Source: Holtermannia corniformis
Taxonomy: Eukaryota > Basidiomycota > Tremellomycetes > Holtermanniales
Length of the DNA stretch: 64,000 nt
NCBI GenBank assembly: GCA_001599935.1
Contig: BCIJ01000042.1
Location: 15,648-79,647, forward strand
Direction of reading: 5' to 3'
Shown here: one piece after another, positions 1 through 63,466 of the stretch
Layout of the letters: every line of letters starts with the position of its first letter
How positions within the stretch are numbered: position 1 is the first letter of the stretch
Translations under genes and position numbers: made by a program
The notes under the pieces: model-generated
Seen by the model: only the letters and a program-made list of their open reading frames with translations
The model's database searches: none
Told to the model about the DNA's origin: nothing

Positions 1-1278
1 AAGATGGCGCACTTCATCCCGACAAAGAAGACGGACGATGCCAAGGCTCTGGCACGGGACTTCCTCAAGCACGTCATCCGACTCCACGGCCTCCCGAAAG
101 AGATCATCTCTGACCGCGGTACGACCTTTGTTGCCAAGTGGTGGCGCGAGGTACTTCGACTACTCGGCACCGACACCAAGCCCTCGACAGCGTTCCACCC
201 GCAGACCAATGGCCAGACCGAACGCATCAACCAGGTCCTGGAACACTACCTCCGAATGTACGCAAACTACCAGCAAGACGACTGGGTGGACCTCATCCCC
301 ATGGCCGAATTCGCCTACAACAACGGTTACCACTCCTCCCTGGGCGCTTCGCCATTCCAAGTCAACTACGGTCAAGATCCCTACGCGCCAGGCGCACTAG
401 TCCCTCCTCCTGCCCTCGACAACATCGCTCCCGCTATCCCTGCCGCCACCTCCCATGTTCTTTCCATCCACCAAGCTCACGACAACGCCCGCACGCACCT
501 TGCTCAAGCTCAAGAAACCTACAAGCGCTTTGCAGACAAGAAAAGACGCGACTTCGACCCCTCGGACTACGAACCTGGCAAGCTGGTCATGCTTCGCCGC
601 GTACACATCAAGACGGACCGGCCCTCAGACAAGCTGGACGACAAATGGGTTGGCCCCTACGCCATCGANAAGGCTATCGGCAGCCGATCATTCCGACTTG
701 CGCTCCCTCCTGGCTCNCGCGTTCACCCNGTNTTCCACGTNTCCCTCCTCTCGCCCTACNCCAACGCCAATGACTTTCCCTCGCGAACTCAAGACCCCCG
801 GCCGCCACCTGTGATCACGGGTGACGGAGACATCGAATACGAGGTTGAACAAATCCTCGACTCACGGCTGTTCGGACGCGGCAAGAAACTCAAGTACTTT
901 GTGGACTGGAAAGGCTACGGCAAGGAGGCCCGGGAATGGGTGGACGCGGACGACTTCGACAACGACGACAGCCTGGTGATTGCGTTCCACACGGCCTACC
1001 CCAGCAAACCCGGACACGAACGGATCACTCGAGCTGCTGCTGCCACCTGGGTACGCGACCGACCACCACACGAGGACCTTGGCATTGCCCGCGACAAACT
1101 TCGGACCCGGTACCGCAGGTACCTTGGACGCAAGAACCTACGGCGCTCGGAGCGCGCCTTGCAAGGGGGGGATAGTGTCATGATCCCGCCTGGATCCTGT
1201 CAGGCTCCGGCCGGCCGGTCCGATCGGCCGCAACCGGCTTCGCTCATTGGATCGGCTCGCACTGCGCAACGGTCGTAG
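1..1278 (+). mobile_element. Ty3/gypsy chromovirus pol 3' end: integrase C-terminal half plus chromodomain
   Basis: The open frame enters from outside the window, so only the end of the polyprotein is seen. The first part is the integrase core: the region around residues 35-80 carries the D-R-G-T-x-F block and the H-P-Q-T-N-G-Q-T-E-R block, which contains the catalytic Glu. It is followed by the usual A-Y-N-N and S-P-F segments. Residues about 275-335 form a chromodomain ([11 protein letters not shown], then Y-F-V-D-W-K-G-Y). In chromoviruses this domain steers integration to heterochromatin marks. The frame runs about 100 nt past the start of the LTR before its stop. Protease, RT and RNase H would lie upstream of base 1. 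Six ambiguous bases (669-760) fall in the segment between integrase and chromodomain. Confidence 0.93.
669..760. other. cluster of six ambiguous bases
   Basis: N at 669, 717, 729, 732, 741 and 760. All lie in the retroelement, in a 92-bp stretch, as expected when near-identical repeat copies are collapsed in an assembly. A single further N lies at 14555. Confidence 0.8.
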
Positions 1279-2959: not shown

Positions 2960-3042
2960 TACTAAGGACGGGGGTCGAACCCGCGACCGTCTGCGCACAA
3001 AATTTTGTAAAGCAGACGCGCTAGCCACTGCGCCACCTCAGC
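2960..3042 (-). tRNA. tRNA-Val (anticodon UAC) with a 10-nt intron
   Basis: Read on the minus strand, the sequence folds into a full cloverleaf. The 7-bp acceptor is GCTGAGG/CCTTAGT with two G-U pairs. The D stem is GCGC/GCGC, the anticodon stem TCTGC/GCAGA and the T arm GCGGG-TTCGACC-CCCGT, with discriminator A. The region between the anticodon stems is 17 nt. Taking out 10 nt (2996-3005), directly 3' of position 37 where eukaryotic tRNA introns lie, leaves the loop TTTACAC. With its stem this is the typical eukaryotic tRNA-Val(TAC) anticodon arm; the anticodon is at 3007-3009. The internal B box (GGTTCGACCCC) is intact. Confidence 0.87.
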
Positions 3043-45214: not shown

Positions 45215-45481
45215 TCAATCTGCCGCAGTACCGTTGATTCCATTGGTCAATGGACCCGCCCGCCTGTCGCGCTCAGCCCATGCCGCCGTTAGCGCCTCGC
45301 TCATCGCCCCGTGATCGGTTGTGGACGGTACATCGATCTCAACGTCTTCTCCAAGTCGGTAGCAATGGTCGCTTATATGCGTCGCAGTGACGGTGACTTT
45401 ATGCGCGTGCTCCAGGAGGCCGCGGTGGGCAGGGTAGTAATCGTGGGTAGTCTGCGATGCTCCTCGTAAACTCGTCGTCAT
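45215..45481 (-). CDS. array member 1, small His/Cys protein (88 aa)
   Basis: Starts M-T-T-S-L-R-G. The shared block reads Y-Y-P-A-H-R-G-L-L-E-H-A-H. The conserved Cys is in S-D-H-C-Y, and the C-terminal part has E-A-L-T-A-A-W-A-E-R. It is the most diverged member, recognisable mainly by exact His spacing and the end helix. There is no signal peptide or membrane segment. An in-frame Met lies 7 codons upstream (45502). It sits 240 bp upstream of the COX12 start on the same strand. The function is unknown. Confidence 0.5.
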   Translation of the reverse strand: MTTSLRGASQTTHDYYPAHRGLLEHAHKVTVTATHISDHCYRLGEDVEIDVPSTTDHGAMSEALTAAWAERDRRAGPLTNGINGTAAD

Positions 45482-45888
45482 GGTTTTATCGGGCAAGATC
45501 ACAACGCAGACAGCTAGAGGCTACTTTGAGGAAGCCAAGACGGACTTGAGGGAGAAAGGATGACAAGCGCCGTTACGAAGCTTCGAACAGGCACCTACAT
45601 AGCGCGGTGAATCCCTGTTTGTGTCGGTCCAAAGCTCCTGGTCGCCTACACCGCAGACTGGTCGGCATAGACTCATGTCTCAGTGCTCGGTACACCAAGA
45701 TTGGGAAGGTGTGGGGGCACACAGTCACATCGGACTAAACGTCACTGCCTGCCGGCTGTCTGCGAAGGATTCTGCGGTAAGTAGGCGGTGTGTATCATCG
45801 GTGAGAAGCCATGCAGTGTGTAGCAGTGAGACGGCAATAAACTATCATACGCTTCGCTATCGTCTACCGAAAATGTGCGGGCGCGTGC

Positions 45889-46134
45889 TCATGCTTGCTC
45901 CGAGGCTGACCAGAGTGCCTTTGCCGCTTCCTTCACATCGCTTGGACAGGCGTTGGCTGCAACTTCGACCACTTTAGAGTTCCTGGATTGTGAGCACCAG
46001 TCGCGAGCCCCTTGGGTAGAAGCCGGTGTCATGGTATGGTTGTGAGGACCAGAGGAACCGTGCGAGGTTGAATAGGTCGAGCTTATGGGCCACTGATTGG
46101 GATCATCGGCGGCGGGGAGCATGTCAACGGCCAT
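45889..46134 (-). CDS. array member 2, small His/Cys protein (81 aa)
   Basis: Starts M-A-V-D-M-L-P-A-A-D-D. The shared block is Y-S-T-S-H-G-S-S-G-P-H-N-H, followed by T and then D-W-C-S-Q. It ends with an Ala-rich helix (V-K-E-A-A-K-A-L-W-S-A-S). A good TATA box (TATAAAT on the minus strand, 46192-46197) lies about 58 bp before the ATG. An in-frame Met further upstream (46182) lies beyond the start expected from that TATA box. No signal peptide. Function unknown. Confidence 0.6.
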   Translation of the reverse strand: MAVDMLPAADDPNQWPISSTYSTSHGSSGPHNHTMTPASTQGARDWCSQSRNSKVVEVAANACPSDVKEAAKALWSASEQA

Positions 46135-46191
46135 TGTGAAGGCTTGATATGTTGAGCAGCTATCTTTCCTTGCTGAGCACATTTATAAGTG

Positions 46192-46197
46192 GCGAAG
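46192..46197 (-). promoter_or_regulatory. TATA box of array member 2
   Basis: ACTTATAAAT on the minus strand, about 58 bp upstream of the start codon. Confidence 0.45.
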
Positions 46198-46544
46198 CTC
46201 GAAGGCGCTCGAGCGCATAGGAAGAGCACGATGCGACAGACCAGACGCTGCCTCTGAAAGGTGCCTGCCTTCCGTGCAAGCAGGCTTCGTCACCTCGGTG
46301 AGCTTCACATACAAACGGCCAGTCTCCTGTGTGCTCAGTACTACGATGGGAAGCTCTGTTGTGGTCTCCAGAAGGACAGCGCACTGTGGTGGTCGTGCGC
46401 GTCTTGTCCGTCGAACCTTCTCGACGGATTTGGATGGATCGCATGTGGATCGCGTAGGCCAGATTGGTGCATAGCATCGAACAGTCAAACAGCAGCTGAT
46501 TCACCGCAGCTTCCTATCTCGACAAGCAGCAAGGCGTTCGTCCT

Positions 46545-46575
46545 TCAGCCGGAGCCGGAGCCGGAGCCGGTGGAG
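46545..46575. repeat. 6-bp simple repeat (ccggag)
   Basis: Four or so tandem ccggag units encode the Gly-Ser tail of array member 3. Confidence 0.6.
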
Positions 46576-46835
46576 GTGCTACCGGTGTCGAAAGCGTAAG
46601 TCCCTGACTGCCCGGACTGATACTGGCTCCATAAGGCTGTAAGCTTTTGTATATTGGCTTCCCTTTTGGCTTCCTCGTTGACAGGATACGATATGTCCTC
46701 AAAAAGGAGCTTCGTGAGTTTGAGTTGGGAGCAGGAATCCCTGAAACAGATTCTGCCCTCAGACAGGTAATCGGACGCTGTATGCGAGTGCGGAGTCATC
46801 CCCCCATGTCCGGATTCGTATGTAAGTATTGCCAT
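46545..46835 (-). CDS. array member 3, small His/Cys protein with Gly/Ser tail (96 aa)
   Basis: Starts M-A-I-L-T. The shared block is Y-E-S-G-H-G-G-M-T-P-H-S-H, followed by T-A-S-D-Y, then C-F-R-D-S-C-S-Q. The C-terminal helix contains N-I-Q-K-L-T-A-L-W-S-Q-Y-Q, closely like members 1 and 2. The last 15 residues are a Gly/Ser/Thr tail (G-S-T-S-T-G-S-G-S-G), encoded by a ccggag trinucleotide-pair repeat at 46545-46570. The open frame extends upstream of this Met, but the chosen start matches the length of the other members. Confidence 0.6.
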   Translation of the reverse strand: MAILTYESGHGGMTPHSHTASDYLSEGRICFRDSCSQLKLTKLLFEDISYPVNEEAKREANIQKLTALWSQYQSGQSGTYAFDTGSTSTGSGSGSG

Positions 46836-47140
46836 GTTGAGATTGCGGATTGGTAGACAGCCATCTAAAAATACGCGCACGTCATGTCTTATGCTCAAGA
46901 CCATGGAAGGCACCGCGCAGTATATGGTAGGACTCCCTTCTTGCACTGCCATTGTATCCTCGCTGGCTGCTTCGAACAGAAGGATCTCGGAATGACCTAC
47001 ACCATTGTCGTTCGCGAAGCCCATCTCGATTTGAAATTTTTACTTTGCATGAGTAGACAACTGAACTGACGAATCTCATCTCTATTATCGAGGGTCAAAA
47101 CTTTGAGCACCTCCGCGGCAGAGACCACGAGTATCGGTCG

Positions 47141-47476
47141 CTACTCGCGCAAGTGTTTCGGAATCCACATCTGCGATGGGTTGGGAGTGGCACGCGGTTC
47201 TCGATCGACCGGCATCAATACAACATCGGAATATGTCTTGCCCTGGTAAAACCGAGTGACAACGGAAGGGATCGTGCTAGGCGGGACGTTCTCATTCAGA
47301 AACGTAGAGCATTTCCACGCCGAGCACGAATCCATGATTCCCTTGAAACCGGTGGTTCGGGAGGTATGAGGCCAGGAGACGTGAAAGTGAGCGGGTAAGT
47401 CACTGTGGGTCACCGAGTGTTTATGGCTCTGGTAGCGCTTGGATTCGCTCGGAGTCAGTCCGGGCAGCGAGCTCAT
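47141..47476 (-). CDS. array member 4, small His/Cys protein (111 aa)
   Basis: Starts M-S-S-L-P-G-L-T-P-S-E-S-K-R. The shared block is H-S-V-T-H-S-D-L-P-A-H-F-H, then V-S-W-P-H-T-S-R-T-T-G, then D-S-C-S-A-W-K. It is the longest member, with a basic/Pro tail (P-R-A-T-P-N-P-S-Q). With members 5 and 6 it forms a subgroup sharing S-W-x-H-T-S-R-x-[TS]-G-x-x-G. The P-S-E-S-K segment near the start is also in member 5, so these two look like the most recent duplicates. Met 47527 upstream is an alternative start. Confidence 0.65.
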   Translation of the reverse strand: MSSLPGLTPSESKRYQSHKHSVTHSDLPAHFHVSWPHTSRTTGFKGIMDSCSAWKCSTFLNENVPPSTIPSVVTRFYQGKTYSDVVLMPVDREPRATPNPSQMWIPKHLRE

Positions 47477-47941
47477 GGTGTAGTCGATTGTGAGTCGCGA
47501 CCACGACTTCGAGGTGCTTAAGTACATGTCTCGCCGCTCGACACTGCCTTCTGACCAGCTGCTTCGCGACTCTAATGAAAGTCACAGATGAGCAAGTAAC
47601 ATGCCAAAGTCACCATGTGCGTGACGAAGAGATCAAGCCATCTCGCGGTTTGATTGCGAGTACCTTCTGGATCGAAGCCGTTCAGCAACCTGCACGCGTT
47701 CGAAGGCTATGCACTTGCATCTCTTGATGCCATCGTGACGTTCTCTGACAACCGTAGGAAGGCATGCGCAAGAGGGCGCGCAACCCGATTCCGAAAACGA
47801 GAAAGAAGCAGTTGAGACTAATTTGCATGCGACATGAAGCACGTAAGAGATATCCGACCTCGCGCACAGCCAGGATCCAACCTGTTTATTGCCGACAGAG
47901 GCATTGCATGTTTTTCAAAGAGAAGCTACGGTTGCGAACCC

Positions 47942-48244
47942 TCAGACGTCGTTCTCGAGCTGCCTGATGATGTCCAAATCATCTTGTGTCAGGTGACTAG
48001 ATGCGCTGTTGACAGACGTCCCTGTCGTTTCGTACGCTTGGCGGATGCCTTTCGGCCAGTCTTTGTATACTGGCGCGGGCGTGAACCACACTGAATCCTT
48101 GTGCGCCGAGCACAGCGAGATGATCCCTTGTTGACCAGAAGTCCTCGACGTGTGCAACCATGAAGTATGTTTATGGGCAGGCAGCCCGCTGTGGGCGACG
48201 GGGTGATTGAAGTGCTGTGATGCTTTTGACTCGCTTGGATTCAT
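47942..48244 (-). CDS. array member 5, small His/Cys protein (100 aa)
   Basis: Starts M-N-P-S-E-S-K-A-S. The shared block is H-P-V-A-H-S-G-L-P-A-H-K-H, then T-S-W-L-H-T-S-R-T-S-G, then S-L-C-S-A-H-K-D. The tail is acidic/polar (L-T-Q-D-D-L-D-I-I-R-Q-L). A TATATA-like element is at 48280-48286, about 40 bp upstream. It is closest to member 4 in both protein and DNA. Confidence 0.65.
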   Translation of the reverse strand: MNPSESKASQHFNHPVAHSGLPAHKHTSWLHTSRTSGQQGIISLCSAHKDSVWFTPAPVYKDWPKGIRQAYETTGTSVNSASSHLTQDDLDIIRQLENDV

Positions 48245-48707
48245 GATCGTACGAGGACATGCCGGTGTGCGTTGCTCCGAATATATGCTTCAGGCTCGCC
48301 TGGCAAAAACGTGATCCACTTAGTTGATAGTCCGCCCACAGTGGATACTACGCTCCTCCGTTGACGAGCAGCAGCCCTTTATGGATCATGCGTCATCAGC
48401 ACGCCTTGCCAGCCTTTCTCCTTTCTCTCCTGTATGATGCAAATGAAAGGCATTCCGTCATTGGTCTTTAGTATCGTCGGAGTGAAGCTTGGACTTTGTA
48501 CTGCAAAGCGAGGGACCGCCAAAACGTCGGCGTCCCTTCAATCAGCCGACAGCGACAGCTGAGCATGGTGTTGCTTGCTTCCTTAGGTCGCATGTATACA
48601 TCTGCCTTTGCATGTTGAAGTGGGCCCAGACAAATCGTAAAGCGCGACGCAATCGCAAGTGGCAAGGACGACAGGCTTGCATGACACCATTTAGCGCATG
48701 GTTCGAC

Positions 48708-49004
48708 CTACACTTGATCCTGCCCAATACTGTTATCCGTCTCATGTACAGCCGACAAGGCCGACTCCTTTGTCAATTGCTGCCAAAACGCGTCGAGCGT
48801 GTCGCGGAATGCACTTGGCGGTGGATGACCCTCCATGAACAGCGTCACATCCCAGGCTTGGCACGAAGTGATGACGCCAGCTACGCCTGTCGCTCTGGAG
48901 GTATGGTACCATGATTCATGGCGGTGCGGCCCTTCACCGCCATGTGAACATTCGTAGCCGACATAGCCAGAGTTCTTGGATGTGCGAGGATCTGATGACG
49001 CCAT
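48708..49004 (-). CDS. array member 6, small His/Cys protein (98 aa)
   Basis: Starts M-A-S-S-D-P-R-T-S-K-N. The shared block is Y-E-C-S-H-G-G-E-G-P-H-R-H, then E-S-W-Y-H-T-S-R-A-T-G, then T-S-C-Q-A-W-D. The C-terminal stretch is R-D-T-L-D-A-F-W-Q-Q-L. A TATA box (TATAAA on the minus strand, 49052-49057) lies about 48 bp upstream. It combines features of both subgroups (Y-E-x-S-H-G-G of members 2/3, S-W-x-H-T-S-R of members 4/5), so it may be nearest to the ancestral form. It is transcribed divergently from the HCNGP-like gene. Confidence 0.68.
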   Translation of the reverse strand: MASSDPRTSKNSGYVGYECSHGGEGPHRHESWYHTSRATGVAGVITSCQAWDVTLFMEGHPPPSAFRDTLDAFWQQLTKESALSAVHETDNSIGQDQV

Positions 49005-49051: not shown

Positions 49052-49057
49052 TTTATA
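49052..49057 (-). promoter_or_regulatory. TATA box of array member 6
   Basis: AGTTATAAAG on the minus strand, about 48 bp upstream of the start codon of member 6. Confidence 0.45.
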
Positions 49058-50625: not shown

Positions 50626-52805
50626 ATGTCCACACCACTGGCAAGACACAGAAAGTGTCACTCGTCATCGGCGCTGAGCGCCGTGCTCGACTCGCCATCA
50701 ACTTCATCCCCGGGTCCAAGCAGGCGGCCCGTGCCACAACAACCGCGAGACAAGGACACTGCTTCGCTCGCCTTCCTCCCGGGCCTCATGACGCCGTCTC
50801 GCAAATCTGCGATGGCCCTCGACAAGAGTCAGACGCGATCACCGGCCAAGGCGCGCGTCAAGGCGGAAGCTACCGAGGCCGACATCAACGGATGGTTGAA
50901 TGATGTTCGTCTGCTTGCGGCTGTCACCTCAGACGGGGCTGACACGCACCCAGCTCCGATCCTTGCGATCCTCTCATCGACGACGTAGAGTGGCTCTGGA
51001 AGGACTTGAAAAGGCTTTGTTACGAGTCTGCGTCAGACGAACAGAGAGGCCCGAGCGAACCAAACATTCGTCGGGCGACAGCCTGCCCACGCTCTCATTT
51101 TTGGTCGGCTTGCAGCGTAAGCTTATGACGTGACAGTACCGTATACTGACATCCTCAGCTCATGTACCCCTCATCGGACTGCTCAGCAGGCACTCTCAAC
51201 AACTGTCCCTCCTGACATCCCTTCCGCTGCCCTCGGATCCAAACGTCGGCATGGAGCAGGCTCAGCTTCTCCCGCAGCTCATACTCGAGCTCGAGACGGC
51301 TCTGTCAGTCTTGCAGGGTCTCTCATTGCTTGATTGCGGCGCAAAGGCGACTGTAGGAGAAAGCTGGTGTATCGAGGTCAGTCTTGACCTGGCTAGCTCG
51401 TCGTCACACTGATAGCCCAGACCCTCATCGACTTGCTGCTGCTGCTGCGAACACAGCCAGCAATGAAGCGAGAAACCTCGGGACCCGCCGAGGGCTCGAC
51501 CCACCCCATTGCGTACACCATCCTCGACCTGTTGTTCTGCATCCTCGTCGATTCACCGCAGAACGCTCGGTGCTTTGAACGTATCGGCGGCCTCGAGGCT
51601 ATCGTCAGGCTGCTCAAGGGGACGGGCGTCGCGCGAGAGGTTCGGTGCGTATATCATGGCCGCCGGCAAATCAGCTCACACGTGTGCAGGATGAAGTGCA
51701 TCGAGTTCCTCTACTTCTACCTGCAGCCCGAAGATGCGTACAAGCAGCAGATGCGATCAACATCAAATACCTCGGCTGGCTCCTCCTCTTCGGGCTCTGC
51801 ATCACCGCTCTACCCACCTTCCCCACTGTCATCCTCCAGCCGCTCATCTTCCGACTCTTCCGCGACGACGCTGTATTCATCTCCAACGCGTGCGAAGCGT
51901 GCTCAAGCGAAAGCAACGGGTGATCCAGATCACTGGTCTGATCTTGACATTCCCTTTGTGCCACAGACACCGTCGCGCAAACCTCAGCCCGAGCTCGGCT
52001 TCTTGACACCGACTACCGGCCGCGTGGCGTCGTCCGCCGGCCTGACGCGCAGCGGCAGTGCACAGCAACTGAGCACCCCGCTCACCAATCGGCGGATGGG
52101 CAAGGCCTCTGCCCCGGCTGGACCTGGAGCAGGTTCGGCGTCACTCGGCATGGTGCTGGAAGAAGCCGCTCAGCACCCTGTTCCACCCAGCCCGCGCTTC
52201 ACCCCTCGACGGCGTGACGACGAAGCCAAGATTGGTCTCGGACTAGGATTGCCGAGAAGCAACAGTCGCGGTTCGACTTCGTCATCTTCGTCGCGCGAGT
52301 CGGATCTGTTTGCGCCGACGGCCTCAAGCCCGGCACTAGGCATGTCGAGATCACGCACGAACCCGGCGCTAGGCCTCTCGCACTCGAGTTCATCGGTGGC
52401 CGAGTCGGGTCACAAGCGCAGGCCATCACGCAGTCCGCTCGTGCAATCTACTACCCCTGGCTCGGCTTCTCCAGTCACGGAATCGACATCGACGCCCAAA
52501 GCACCGCCTAGGCTACGGGACATTGCCAAGTCGCGCTTGCCGGCCTCGTCTTCTTCACCGGCATTGGCCAGTCTGGTCTCAACACCAAAGGCCAAAGGCT
52601 CTCCCGTGCCCGTCCTACCGCCCGATGACGGCGGTGTGAGGAGGTCGGTGCAACAAAAGAAGGAACTGGTGAGTCACGCTGCGATCGCTTGTGCCTTGCG
52701 CTGAACATCCCGCAGCTGAGCGTATGGCTCGGCAACGTCGACGACCTGATCCAAGGCGTGGACAATGTTGGCTTCTGGCGTTCGCTGGGCGGCCGCAAGC
52801 CGTGA
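50626..52805 (+). CDS. cdc14: SIN component Cdc14 (Sid1-partner type, not the phosphatase)
   Basis: In S. pombe Cdc14 binds the Sid1 kinase in the septation initiation network at the spindle pole. Landmarks run through short exons: I-N-G-W-L-N-D, L-E-G-L-E-K-A-L, L-V-G-L-Q, then L-E-T-A-L-S-V-L-Q-G-L-S-L-L. Next is P-I-A-Y-T-I-L-D-L-L-F-C-I-L-V-D-S-P-Q-N-A-R-C-F-E. Next come G-G-L-E-A-I-V-R-L-L-K and K-C-I-E-F-L-Y-F-Y-L-Q-P-E, both highly typical of the PF08045 fold. A Ser/Pro/Thr-rich insert of about 300 residues follows. The last exon gives L-S-V-W-L-G-N-V-D-D-L-I-Q-G, the family's end motif. The insert has many S/T-P sites. The stop is at 52803-52805. Confidence 0.88.
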
Positions 52806-53008: not shown

Positions 53009-55221
53009 TTACATGATCACGCACTCCTTCTCGGCCTGCTGCCGAGTAGGCCGCGCAGCGGCCCGAGCAGCGCCTTGTTTCTTCATCTCTGTGAGACGCT
53101 GCATCGCGCGCTTGTTTCCTTGCGCTGCAAGGTGATCAGCATCACTTCGTCGTGCGTCGACGCGCGCTTGAATCGCGACCACTCACCCGCCGCGCGCATA
53201 TACCACCGTTTCGCAAGTTCGAGATCCTGCTTGACGCCGATGCCAATCTCGGTGTAGTCTGTCCAGACATGAGTACGGCAACGGCTGTACTAGACGCAAG
53301 GGCCTGCTGTGGCGCAGGAATACTTACAGCCAACGGCGTATTCAGCCTTTGCGAGACCCTTGTTGGCGGCTTTGCGGCCCCACAGGTATGCTTCTGTATC
53401 TGATTGCTTCAGGACGCCCTCTGTGCCATGTCAGCTTGGACGACTCGTGGTGGGACCAGACTGACCGCTGCCGGTCAGGTACCAGCCGCTGAGTGCGAGC
53501 TCTGCCTCTGAATCGCCCTTTTCCGCCGCTTTACTGTACCAAGCGATACTCCGCCTCGGATCGACTGGACAACCAAGCGTGCCGTACTCGTAGCATGTCC
53601 CGAGCTTGAATTGCGCGGGCGCATAGCTCAGTTGCGCAGCCTGGGTGTACAAGTCTTTTGCCGCGTTCGGATCGTACATGACGACCTTGTTGTCCTGGCG
53701 TTCGTGCAGGATGGCGAGCTCGTGCAGGGCGTGTGGGTTCTCCTCGTCTGCTTGGTTGGCGGCGCGGCGGAGCCATGTGATGGCTTCGCGCGGGTTGCGC
53801 GCTTGCGACAGCAGACCGCCGAGCAGGATCATGCCGAGCTTGTACATTGCCGCCGTGTCACCCAAAGCTGCCGCTTTGCGGTAGAACAGTACAGCACGGT
53901 TATGCTCTTTGCGCGTGCCGGCGCCAATCTCGTTGCACACGGCGGTCCGGTACGTGGCCGCCGGGTGATTCTGCTTGGACGCCTGCATGTAGAGCTGGTA
54001 TGCTCGCTCGTGATCGACCTGCAACCCAAGCTGACCCGTGCCATACAAGTTGGCGAGAAAGAATTGAGCGTCGGCATACGCGTCGGTGCCCGTCGCCAAC
54101 TTTTTGACGAGCTTGAGACTCTCGCCAACGAGTAGATCACGGTATTTGCGCCCTGATCGCGGATCCCGTTTACTGACTTCGTCGCCCAGGATCTTGGCGG
54201 CCTCGATCAAGTACTTTGCAAACCCAAACTGCGCTTCCGGATCGGGATCGCCCTTCATACGCGTTCGGTACTCGTCGACGAATGCCTTTGTGTAGGGCGG
54301 CTTGTTGACGTCGATGGCCGCTTGCGTGCCTTTGCGCCTGGCGTTCGAAGAGCCGATAGAGTTGCCGTTGGTGATGCTGCGCGAGAGGGAAGAGGTATTG
54401 GACAGGGCCGAGGCAGTGGTATTGGTCCGGTTGAGCGAACCCGGCTGTGAGACTATCGAGGGTGGACCGCCACCCGAAGGATATACTGGCGCGCCTGGCG
54501 GTAAACCGAGAAAGTCGTTGGCGGCCGCATAGTAAGGATTGGCATAGTCTTGCCGTGGTGGTTCCCAGCCATTGCCGCCTGGATACGCCGGTCCTGGGCC
54601 CGCCGGCTGTGCACCGTACGCGCCCATCCCGCTGTCCAGGCTGTAGACCGAAGCGGCGGCATCACGCAGCGGTTGGACCGTATCCTCGCCCTCGCCATAC
54701 GCATCATAGATCTGCTCTGCCGTCGTCGTCGCCCGTGCGTGCGGCTGAGCCTCTGTCAACCGGAGCGAAGACAAGTTGATGTCGTTCGGGTCCGATACCG
54801 GTCTTCTTGGCGGGCCGGGATGCTGCGGGTGATGATACGTTTGAGCTTGTGGTGGATGCTCATAGTCGACTGGCGAGTACGGTGCTTGTTCAGAGTTGGA
54901 AAAAGGTGCTTGCGGCGGGCTAGCGTACGCCGTGTCATATTGCTGTGGCTGTGATGGGAGGGGCGGTGCGCGCTCACGCATGTGTGCTTGGGATGCTACG
55001 ATCCGGATCCCATCAGCACCGAGACCACGACCGTAACAGCAAGACTGACGTCGATCTCTCAAGCTCTGACTCCTGGCCGAGCTCCCCGCTGAACCTCCTG
55101 CGACCGCGTACGCTCGCTCATCCTGCTCGTATCCCGGCGGGCTACCGTACGAAGGGTCCATCGTGTGCGCCCTGCGCGGGTGCGACGGCGCCAAGGACGA
55201 GGTCGAGCCCGGTCGTGACAT
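53009..55221 (-). CDS. SKT5: chitin synthase activator Skt5/Chs4 with SEL1 repeats and C-terminal CAAX box
   Basis: Skt5/Chs4 recruits and activates chitin synthase III at the cell cortex and neck. The N-terminal 320 residues are Pro/Gln/Ser/Tyr-rich. The repeat part starts P-P-Y-T-K-A-F-V-D-E-Y and carries six to seven SEL1-type units (A-D-A-Q-F-F-L-A-N-L-Y-G-x-G; A-A-M-Y-K-L-G-M-I; A-Q-F-K-L-G-T-C-Y-E-Y-G). Introns near 53460, 53320 and 53135 lead to N-K-R-A-M-Q-R-L. The protein ends Glu-Cys-Val-Ile-Met, a CAAX farnesylation box, as in yeast Chs4. The start is set at M-S-R-P-G-S (55221). An intron near 54987-55046 would remove an odd Cys-containing segment (S-C-C-Y-G-R) that is open in frame. 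Stop TAA 53009-53011. Confidence 0.92.
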
Positions 55222-55489
55222 GATCCAAAGGGGGACGATGCTGCGGATAGGGGATCGCACTCAACCTTGGGACGCGAGACGGCACAGTTTCGGTCGTGTG
55301 CTGTGCTCGAGTGGCTTCAGTGCGCAAACGCTCGAGGGGGATGCAGACTGTGATGGTGATAGAGTGGAATGCGAGCTGATGCCAACAAGACAGACGTGAA
55401 CGGCAGTGTTCGTGGCGGCGGCGGCGATCGATCCGTGTACAGGTTCATCCCAGCATGCAGCGAGCGAGCAAGACAGAACTGTACAAGCA

Positions 55490-61740: not shown

Positions 61741-63466
61741 TTACTGCTCGGCGGCCCATTCGAAGAGCCAGCTACACATCGTCAGTAACCCTCTCGATCG
61801 AAAGGAGGCCAACCGACCTCTCCCAGTTGTCCCACGTGCCCTGCTCGAGCAGCTCGCCGTCATGGTCGTGGTGCTTGTGCGGCGGGACGAGGACCTTGCC
61901 AATCACATGGATCACACCGTTGATGGCCGGCACGTCGGTCTTTTCAACCTGCTCGCCGTTGACGCTGATCGTGACCTTGACCGCACCAGGCACAGGCAAG
62001 ACCTTGGTCTTGTCGACCACGATGGCAAGCGAAGCGTTGTTGCCGAGGCCCGACGGGAGCGAAAACTCGTGGTGGAACGAAATGTCGTCGCCGAGCGAGG
62101 GAACGGCGTTTTTGTGGTCATGGTGGACGACGTGGAGCAGTTCAGAGAACAAGATGGTGTTGGGCAACGCGTGGTACGCGAGCACCTTTGTGAGAACCTC
62201 TTTGCCAAACGGCGAGAACAGGAAGAACTTGAGCTTTGGCGGAAGCTGGTGGAACGCATCGTTGGTCGGCGCGAACAGCGTCACGGCGCCGGTACCCTTG
62301 AACGCGGCTATGAAACATCAGCTTTGATGTCGAGTGACAGACAAGCGACTTACGTTTGCCCTCCTTGCTGTTCTTGGAGTCATACTCCCACTCGAGGTAC
62401 TTTTCGCCGCCAACCTGCGTGTCTGTCAGCCACTGCTTGGCTCAACGATCGACCCAACACACCTTCTGTACCGATGATGTGAGCGTCGAGAACTCTTCTG
62501 GGAAGAGGAACGCAATGTCGAGCACCGACGGCGCCGGAAACAACGGGTGCTCGATCGTGTGGATGTAGCCGTTCTTGACCTTGAGATCGGCCGACTTGAC
62601 CTTGATGTAGTAGTTGAGCTTGAGCGCTGTGCAAGTCAGCTTGTGCGAGGGATGCACTGGGGGAACACTGACTGGGCGGAACGAAAGACTTTTCAATCTT
62701 GATGCGGCGGTGGAGGCCGCCAAACGAGCCAAAGTCGGCCTTGAGGGCCGTGCTGAGACGGTCAGCCATGACGGCAAGCGTCGCTAGTTGGGCTCTACTG
62801 ACGCGACCGTCGAGTTTTCAGCGAGCTCTGACGCGCTCAGAGCGCGTTCGAGGCCGTGATACTGCAAGACGCGCTTAAGGATCTCCTTGAAGATCTGCTT
62901 CTTCTTTTCGTCGTCCTTGTCGCCACCCTTGTGCTCGTGGTGCTCATAAGCTGGGTAGCGGGCGATGAAAGCGAGAATGTCGGTCGGGGTCGGCGAGGAC
63001 GCGAGTGCACGCTGATGCCATCAGCCGTGACCGCTTCCATCTCGATCTACTAACCAACGCGGCCTCGTCGTCATCATCGTGATCGTGGTGCTTGTGCGGG
63101 TCCGGGATCGCATCATTATCAGGCGCAAAAAAAGTGATCTGCAAGCTCGCATCGTCAAGATACTTTGCCGCCGTGCCATCAATCTGTCCGGATCAGTACC
63201 CGGATCGGCCGATCGATCGCGCAGTGACCGACCTTGATCAGCTTGACGAGCTTGCTAAACTCTTGCTTTTCCTGCAGGACCTGCCAGACTGTCTTTTCTT
63301 CGTCGTTGGCGACGTGGACGGGCGCAAAGTACTCTGCGGCCTTGTTCCAGATCTGGCCGGTGAAGCCTGTTTGGATAGAGTGCCATTCGGCTTCCGAGAG
63401 CTCGTTTGTGGTTGCGGGTGCGGCGAGGGCCAGAGGGAGCAGCGGCGCGAGGAGAGCCCAGCGCAT
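61741..63466 (-). CDS. secreted fasciclin (FAS1) domain protein, two domains
   Basis: FAS1 proteins are extracellular or cell-wall adhesion-type proteins. The N terminus M-R-W-A-L-L-A-P-L-L-P-L-A-L-A-A-P-A is a clear signal peptide. The first FAS1 domain has V-W-Q-V-L-Q, then I-T-F-F-A-P-D-N-D-A-I and L-K-R-V-L-Q-Y-H, then I-H-T-I-E-H-P-L-F-P. The second has V-T-L-F-A-P-T-N-D-A-F-H-Q-L, K-V-L-A-Y-H-A-L-P and I-N-G-V-I-H-V-I-G-K-V-L-V-P-P. The last exon, after an intron near 61810, gives W-L-F-E-W-A-A-E-Q and the stop at 61741. No GPI-type hydrophobic end is present, so it is probably secreted. His/Asp-rich patches (K-H-H-D-H-D twice, E-H-H-E-H-K once) stand out. Confidence 0.9.

Follow-up and report, generated by a model that had tools for sequence, protein, structure and literature searches.

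The 64,000-nucleotide stretch of Holtermannia corniformis DNA analysed here (the window) lies on contig BCIJ01000042.1 (C42) of a 20.2 Mb, 55-contig genome. It raises the question of whether a row of six short open reading frames (ORFs) on its minus strand encodes a genuine protein family, and what such proteins might do. A preliminary description had reported six minus-strand ORFs of 88, 81, 96, 111, 100 and 98 amino acids (aa) at near-regular spacing, each with His residues arranged as H-x5-H-x-H; these lengths, the strand, the spacing and the His arrangement hold for all six. We number them P0001 to P0006 from low to high coordinate, and their ATG-to-ATG distances are 641-768 bp. The family is larger than this array, with two more copies (P0007 and P0008) on contig C2, and we refer to P0004-P0006 of the window together with P0007-P0008 as the core five. 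The array consists of the following ORFs.

48708..49004, minus strand: P0006, 98 aa, core member, closest to the two C2 copies
47942..48244, minus strand: P0005, 100 aa, core member
47141..47476, minus strand: P0004, 111 aa, core member
46545..46835, minus strand: P0003, 96 aa, divergent member, start uncertain
45889..46134, minus strand: P0002, 81 aa, divergent member
45215..45481, minus strand: P0001, 88 aa, probable member by position, spacing, strand and motif

The start of P0003 is uncertain because this ORF is the end of a 159-aa ORF, with an in-frame ATG also at 47024. H-x5-H-x-H is present in six of the six array ORFs, and the Cys described as following the last His by 13-19 residues is likewise found in each; P0003 departs from the description in carrying two, 12 and 17 residues past that His. 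H-x5-H-x-H occurs in nine of the 159 window ORFs that begin with ATG and reach at least 80 aa, whereas His content would predict 0.64 occurrences, so the motif is more frequent than chance; the array supplies six of the nine. One of the three others is a 93-aa plus-strand frame opposite P0006 (48911-49189), whose own H-x5-H-x-H overlies the P0006 motif.

Searches for copies covered the whole genome. The P0006 query returns C2:666318-666545 (expectation value, E, of 1.8e-18; 46%) and C2:667008-667250 (E 1.0e-17; 43%), a tandem pair on a single strand with starts 720 bp apart, corresponding to P0007 (95 aa) and P0008 (107 aa). The same query finds its array mates P0004 (E 1.5e-10) and P0005 (E 2.6e-7) independently of the motif, and the C2 copies are thus nearer to P0006 than its array mates are. 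P0004 and P0005 match at E 1.2e-12 (55% over 55 aa), P0004 matches the C2 copies at E 4.7e-9 and 6.6e-9, and the queries P0004, P0007 and P0008 each return the same five genes, P0004-P0008. The start Met is aligned across the core five, which have 14 invariant columns, including H-x5-H-x-H-x2-W-x-H-T-S-R and one Cys. Genome-wide, a DNA pattern encoding H-x-H-x2-W-x-H-T-[S]-R is matched without mismatch at five sites only, those of the core five; with up to two mismatches it occurs at 52 places, versus 30 for the reversed control, and beyond the five exact sites none belongs to a known family member. With mutual significant similarity and shared invariant residues, the core five certainly form one family as judged by sequence comparison. 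In an eight-row alignment, the similarity to P0006 is 41% for the C2 copies and 28, 32, 27, 25 and 16% for P0005 to P0001. A tree of seven sequences joins P0004 to P0005 (98/98), the other forks being 94/93 or open and most end branches long. Two further stretches considered as distant copies with the P0007 query, C4:29012-29275 (E 0.25, two stops) and C1:858694-858852 (E 0.39), were rejected, as neither rises with a core profile. The C2 pair is flanked on one side by an open frame with allantoicase repeats (L006:5795-6367, where L006 is C2:662000-671900); on the other side, farther off, lies a match below the cut-off to enzymes dependent on pyridoxal phosphate (PLP) (L006:1566-2273).

Do the remaining three ORFs of the array belong to the same family? 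As single queries, P0002 and P0003 find each other weakly (E 0.08 and 0.05), and P0001 has no match in the genome. The core-five profile ranks P0002 and P0003 sixth and seventh among 1700 frames (E 0.0068 and 0.028), with 13.1 bits for P0002 and 11.1 bits for P0003; the latter is not above the decoys, because the best of 3817 decoy frames scores 11.3. Separation is wider in leave-out profiles, since the core five plus P0003 find P0002 at E 2.9e-6 (24.3 bits, best of 3817 decoys 10.2) and the core five plus P0002 find P0003 at E 8.7e-5 (19.7 bits, best of 3817 decoys 11.3), so that both ORFs are recovered when left out. Alignment to the core by hhalign gives E 0.0009 for P0002 and 0.0042 for P0003 (reversed controls 0.88 and 0.31), with probabilities of only 23 and 8%. 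Membership of P0002 and P0003 is well supported by these profile comparisons. P0001 scores E 4e-4 to 3e-3 alone, but E 1.2-5.9 against all frames with the leave-out profiles, below the best decoy; its hhalign values are E 0.041 to the core and 0.0054 to P0002 plus P0003 (reversed 0.18 and 0.66), and we regard it as a probable member. Including the C2 pair, there are seven genes with good support and one probable one. A minus-strand ORF in a spacer (46160-46477, 105 aa) was tried as a seventh array copy and rejected, its profile score of 0.3-1.5 bits lying far under the best decoys. By eye it reads H-x5-C-x-H then SCSSY, like a degenerate copy, and it has E 0.023-0.046 when scored alone.

Within the core five, the pairwise proportion of synonymous differences (pS) is 0.70-0.94 and that of nonsynonymous differences (pN) 0.37-0.53. 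The synonymous rate (dS) is not computable in 8 of the 10 core pairs because of saturation, for which reason ratios of nonsynonymous to synonymous rates (dN/dS) are bounds only. Residues invariant in the core five, apart from Met and Trp, are written with differing codons. Saturated synonymous sites and codon differences together indicate that the core duplications are old and that the core-five proteins are under protein-level constraint. The selection on a real protein family proposed in the preliminary description is therefore borne out for the core five (pN < pS, with near-saturation at synonymous sites), and its own suggested refutation, degraded copies of a larger gene, finds no support: the C2 copies are stop-free and no longer homologue appeared.

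Three protein searches were run, with P0006, the eight-row alignment and one control gene. Against a database of 5.8 billion proteins, P0006 gave 3 candidates, none at E <= 0.001, and the alignment gave 506, none at E <= 1. The control, P0009, is a long open frame with Sel1 repeats near the array (53434-55224), for which 2293 of 7998 scored proteins had E <= 0.001. Among the matches listed for P0009, two records stand at 92-93%, followed by Tremellales at 75-80% (Kwoniella, Tremellales sp. Uapishka_1, Naematelia, Tremella and Cryptococcus), and next by Mrakia at 76% and Cutaneotrichosporon at 74%. By this gene the yeast falls in or close to Tremellales, among relatives of the jelly fungi; the order is probable only, given how near Mrakia and Cutaneotrichosporon follow. 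The matches show that the database holds Tremellales proteins, yet no relative of the family came out of it. Nor did Pfam, NCBIfam or PDB sequences yield one. Matches of the profile to 7mbk (E 0.25), 3q7r (E 0.78) and 9r8v (E 7.3) in the PDB are noise, and in PHROGs six families were hit by one matching member each (best E 0.086) without a pattern. A viral fold library searched with the first structural model only gave a best E of 0.10, with none at E <= 0.001. The core alignment led to 33 stretches in prokaryote genomes and 16 in viral contigs that fit a peptide pattern, but by tblastn none of them is a relative. Among the literature matches listed there is no account of such a protein family, and those to motif strings are unrelated uses of HGGE or its letters. 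As far as these searches reach, the paralogous family is real and new to the literature and databases, in keeping with the earlier view of it as unrecognised; the tests also bear out the idea of an expanded, perhaps lineage-specific, small-protein family. It is likely restricted to the genus or family of the host. This restriction is unproven, because the database search depends on shared 5-residue words, fungal annotation often misses short genes, and the collections searched exclude fungal genome DNA.

A compact domain of four strands followed by a helix is common to both AlphaFold2 models, with a predicted local distance difference test score (pLDDT) of about 90 in the core. The predicted domain is some 70 residues long and opens with a short P-x2-S-K segment at the N terminus, ahead of the four strands and the C-terminal helix. 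Invariant columns in the eight-row alignment are Met1, H21, H27, H29 and C48 only (P0006 numbering), and the core five additionally share P6, S9, K10, W32, H34, T35, S36, R37 and G43. Metal sites made of three His and one Cys are well known. The metal binding raised as a possibility in the preliminary description keeps that conditional standing, now with the point in its favour that, Met1 apart, these four residues alone are invariant; from this ligand-like conservation, the family probably encodes small metal-binding proteins. One metal ion, most likely zinc, would be bound by H21 from the loop that links strands 1 and 2, by H27 and H29 where strand 2 begins, and by C48 where strand 3 closes, and it would pin the loop to the sheet. 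H27 and H29 would share one face of strand 2, and strand 3, with C48 at its far end, would lie beside strand 2, to which a short turn connects it. The W-x-H-T-S-R segment is invariant in the core five and lost in P0001-P0003, which suggests one conserved branch and one more freely diverging; its strand and turn may form a working surface for a partner, either protein or nucleic acid. The highest 19-residue Kyte-Doolittle mean among the eight proteins is 1.06 and the highest N-terminal 11-residue mean 0.61. By hydropathy none of the eight has an N-terminal hydrophobic segment or a membrane span, as had been described, and the proteins therefore probably act inside the cell, perhaps as small adaptors or regulators.

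We give about an even chance to the reading that these genes are a tandem, anciently duplicated family of soluble single-domain proteins, each with one structural zinc in a site of three His and one Cys and with a partner-binding face. More tentatively, we suggest a family confined to the genus or family of its host, with a domain unlike solved structures and a His-x5-His-x-His plus Cys metal site, born and expanded in one Tremellales branch, in which a subset keeps the W-x-H-T-S-R surface and the rest only the metal site. Several observations weigh against the zinc-domain reading. Every structural match is under the tool's stated noise level, no solved structure rising above it for either model, and Elf1 is absent from the structural matches listed for the second model. 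The meeting of the four ligands would follow from predicted strands in metal-free models. The His invariance in P0001-P0003 arises partly by selection, because these ORFs were picked in the first place by their His motif. Codon usage scores, from 2,949 reference codons in putative exons of the window, are near zero, and the true frame is best in only five of the eight ORFs (P0002, P0004, P0005, P0006 and P0008, and not P0001, P0003 or P0007), which leaves expression of these genes unproven.

Four other explanations can be weighed against this evidence. The proteins could be small enzymes, in which the cluster of three His and one Cys and the W-x-H-T-S-R segment would be catalytic, as in a metal-dependent hydrolase or nuclease-like protein, and not structural. 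More polar residues are conserved than a structural site would require, His34, Thr35, Ser36 and Arg37 being constant throughout the core five, but P0001-P0003 lack these four residues and yet keep the ligand set, the domain is very small and no enzyme family matches it, so we consider this unlikely.

Alternatively, and in our view also improbably, the family is a divergent offshoot of a known fold with a role in translation or transcription, either the GGQ domain of release factors or peptidyl-tRNA hydrolase or the zinc ribbon of Elf1 or TFIIS. By eye, H-G-G-E resembles the GGQ of release factors, but we dropped this alignment because structural alignments place GGQ elsewhere. Residues H21-E24 read HGGE in three of the eight proteins and HSGL, HSDL, HGGM, HGSS and HRGL in the others, so the GGQ motif is missing, and the structural alignment with the release factor/ArfB domain (PF00472) is out of register. 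PF00472 is matched by other loci of the host, most strongly on contig C10 at E 3.3e-24. The zinc ribbon of Elf1/ELOF1 (PF05129) has the form C-x2-C...C-x2-C, and such Elf1/TFIIS-type ribbons carry two C-x2-C knuckles, whereas the His/Cys family has 1-2 Cys per protein, one of them invariant. It thus has no shared C-x2-C pair, its candidate ligands are three His and one Cys, and it has no Pfam match. The PF05129 model gave 0 matches to the host genome in six frames, perhaps because the gene is split by introns.

Defence, killer or host-interaction families typically expand in tandem, diverge strongly and are restricted taxonomically, and a rapidly evolving family of this kind, released without a classical signal, would fit on these general grounds. 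With no visible signal peptide, 1-2 Cys per protein, and synonymous near-saturation beside a conserved core, unlike recent positive selection, we think it very unlikely. The chance is similarly slim that these are unexpressed relics of an old, decaying family whose loss shows in the gradient from P0006 to P0001, for although likeness to P0006 declines roughly along the array, codon bias is weak and P0001 is not separable from decoys, the ligand set is retained, a family decaying at such divergence should show stops and frameshifts, and the C2 copies, located by similarity, are stop-free (the open frames of P0001-P0006 being a matter of how the preliminary description chose them).

The preliminary description had also placed a TATA site before each gene and set the absence of introns against the multi-exon neighbours. 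TATA-like hexamers within 200 nt of the ATG occur in three of the six window genes, and in four of eight with the C2 pair, the other three window genes having none. Those of the window are as follows.

49052..49057, minus strand: TATAAA upstream of P0006, 53 nt from the ATG
48280..48285, minus strand: TATATT upstream of P0005
46182..46187, minus strand: TATAAA upstream of P0002

The TATA-box argument is thus weak. So is that from missing introns, because the paralogues derive from one ancestor and count as about one observation. Inside P0005, 47964-48035 is a frame-preserving stretch of 72 nt with intron-like ends and a branch-like CTGAC, and might be an optional intron. The downstream neighbour of the array is alpha-COP, which extends over several separate open frames with Pfam COPI_C and COPA/B domains, and the upstream flank has a plus-strand open frame with a CDC14 (septation network) domain and a long serine-rich extension (51397-52701). 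Elsewhere in the window we observe the end of a long terminal repeat (LTR) retrotransposon polyprotein (1-1275, plus strand; Tf2-1-like SH3 and chromodomain above the cut-off, integrase core below), a tRNA gene matched by Rfam and not by ARAGORN (2960-3042, minus strand), and a fasciclin-domain open frame with a His-rich tail beyond the domain, PPHKHHDHDGE (61775-62317, minus strand).

Genes restricted to one taxon tend to be short and solitary, and their reality is difficult to establish. In this case, two clusters with seven or eight paralogues between them supply evidence for selection from within the genome, with no need of homologues outside it; the genes also illustrate that family libraries can miss short intronless genes. 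Confidence in the predicted domain is good, and the domain would make a small, easily expressed test case for the origin and spread of a new folded, perhaps metal-dependent, domain in a yeast lineage.

Among other known systems, metallothioneins have many Cys, in contrast to the 1-2 per protein found here, and small secreted effectors have an N-terminal hydrophobic core that these proteins lack by hydropathy (highest 11-residue mean 0.61). The WRKY-GCM zinc domain is characterized by WRKYGQK and C-x4-5-C-x22-23-H-x-H. Similar to this domain, the family is predicted to have a beta sheet with an H-x-H pair, and AtWRKY4 is in both Foldseek lists (E 0.64 and 2.3, below noise), but the H-x-H of the family precedes its one conserved Cys, and it has neither WRKYGQK nor a Pfam match. 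Cupin motif 1 is G-x5-H-x-H-x3,4-E-x6-G; although the family is too short for a cupin, with no Glu at the needed spacing, no second motif and no Pfam match, its G-G-x-x-x-H-x-H followed by aromatic residues resembles this motif.

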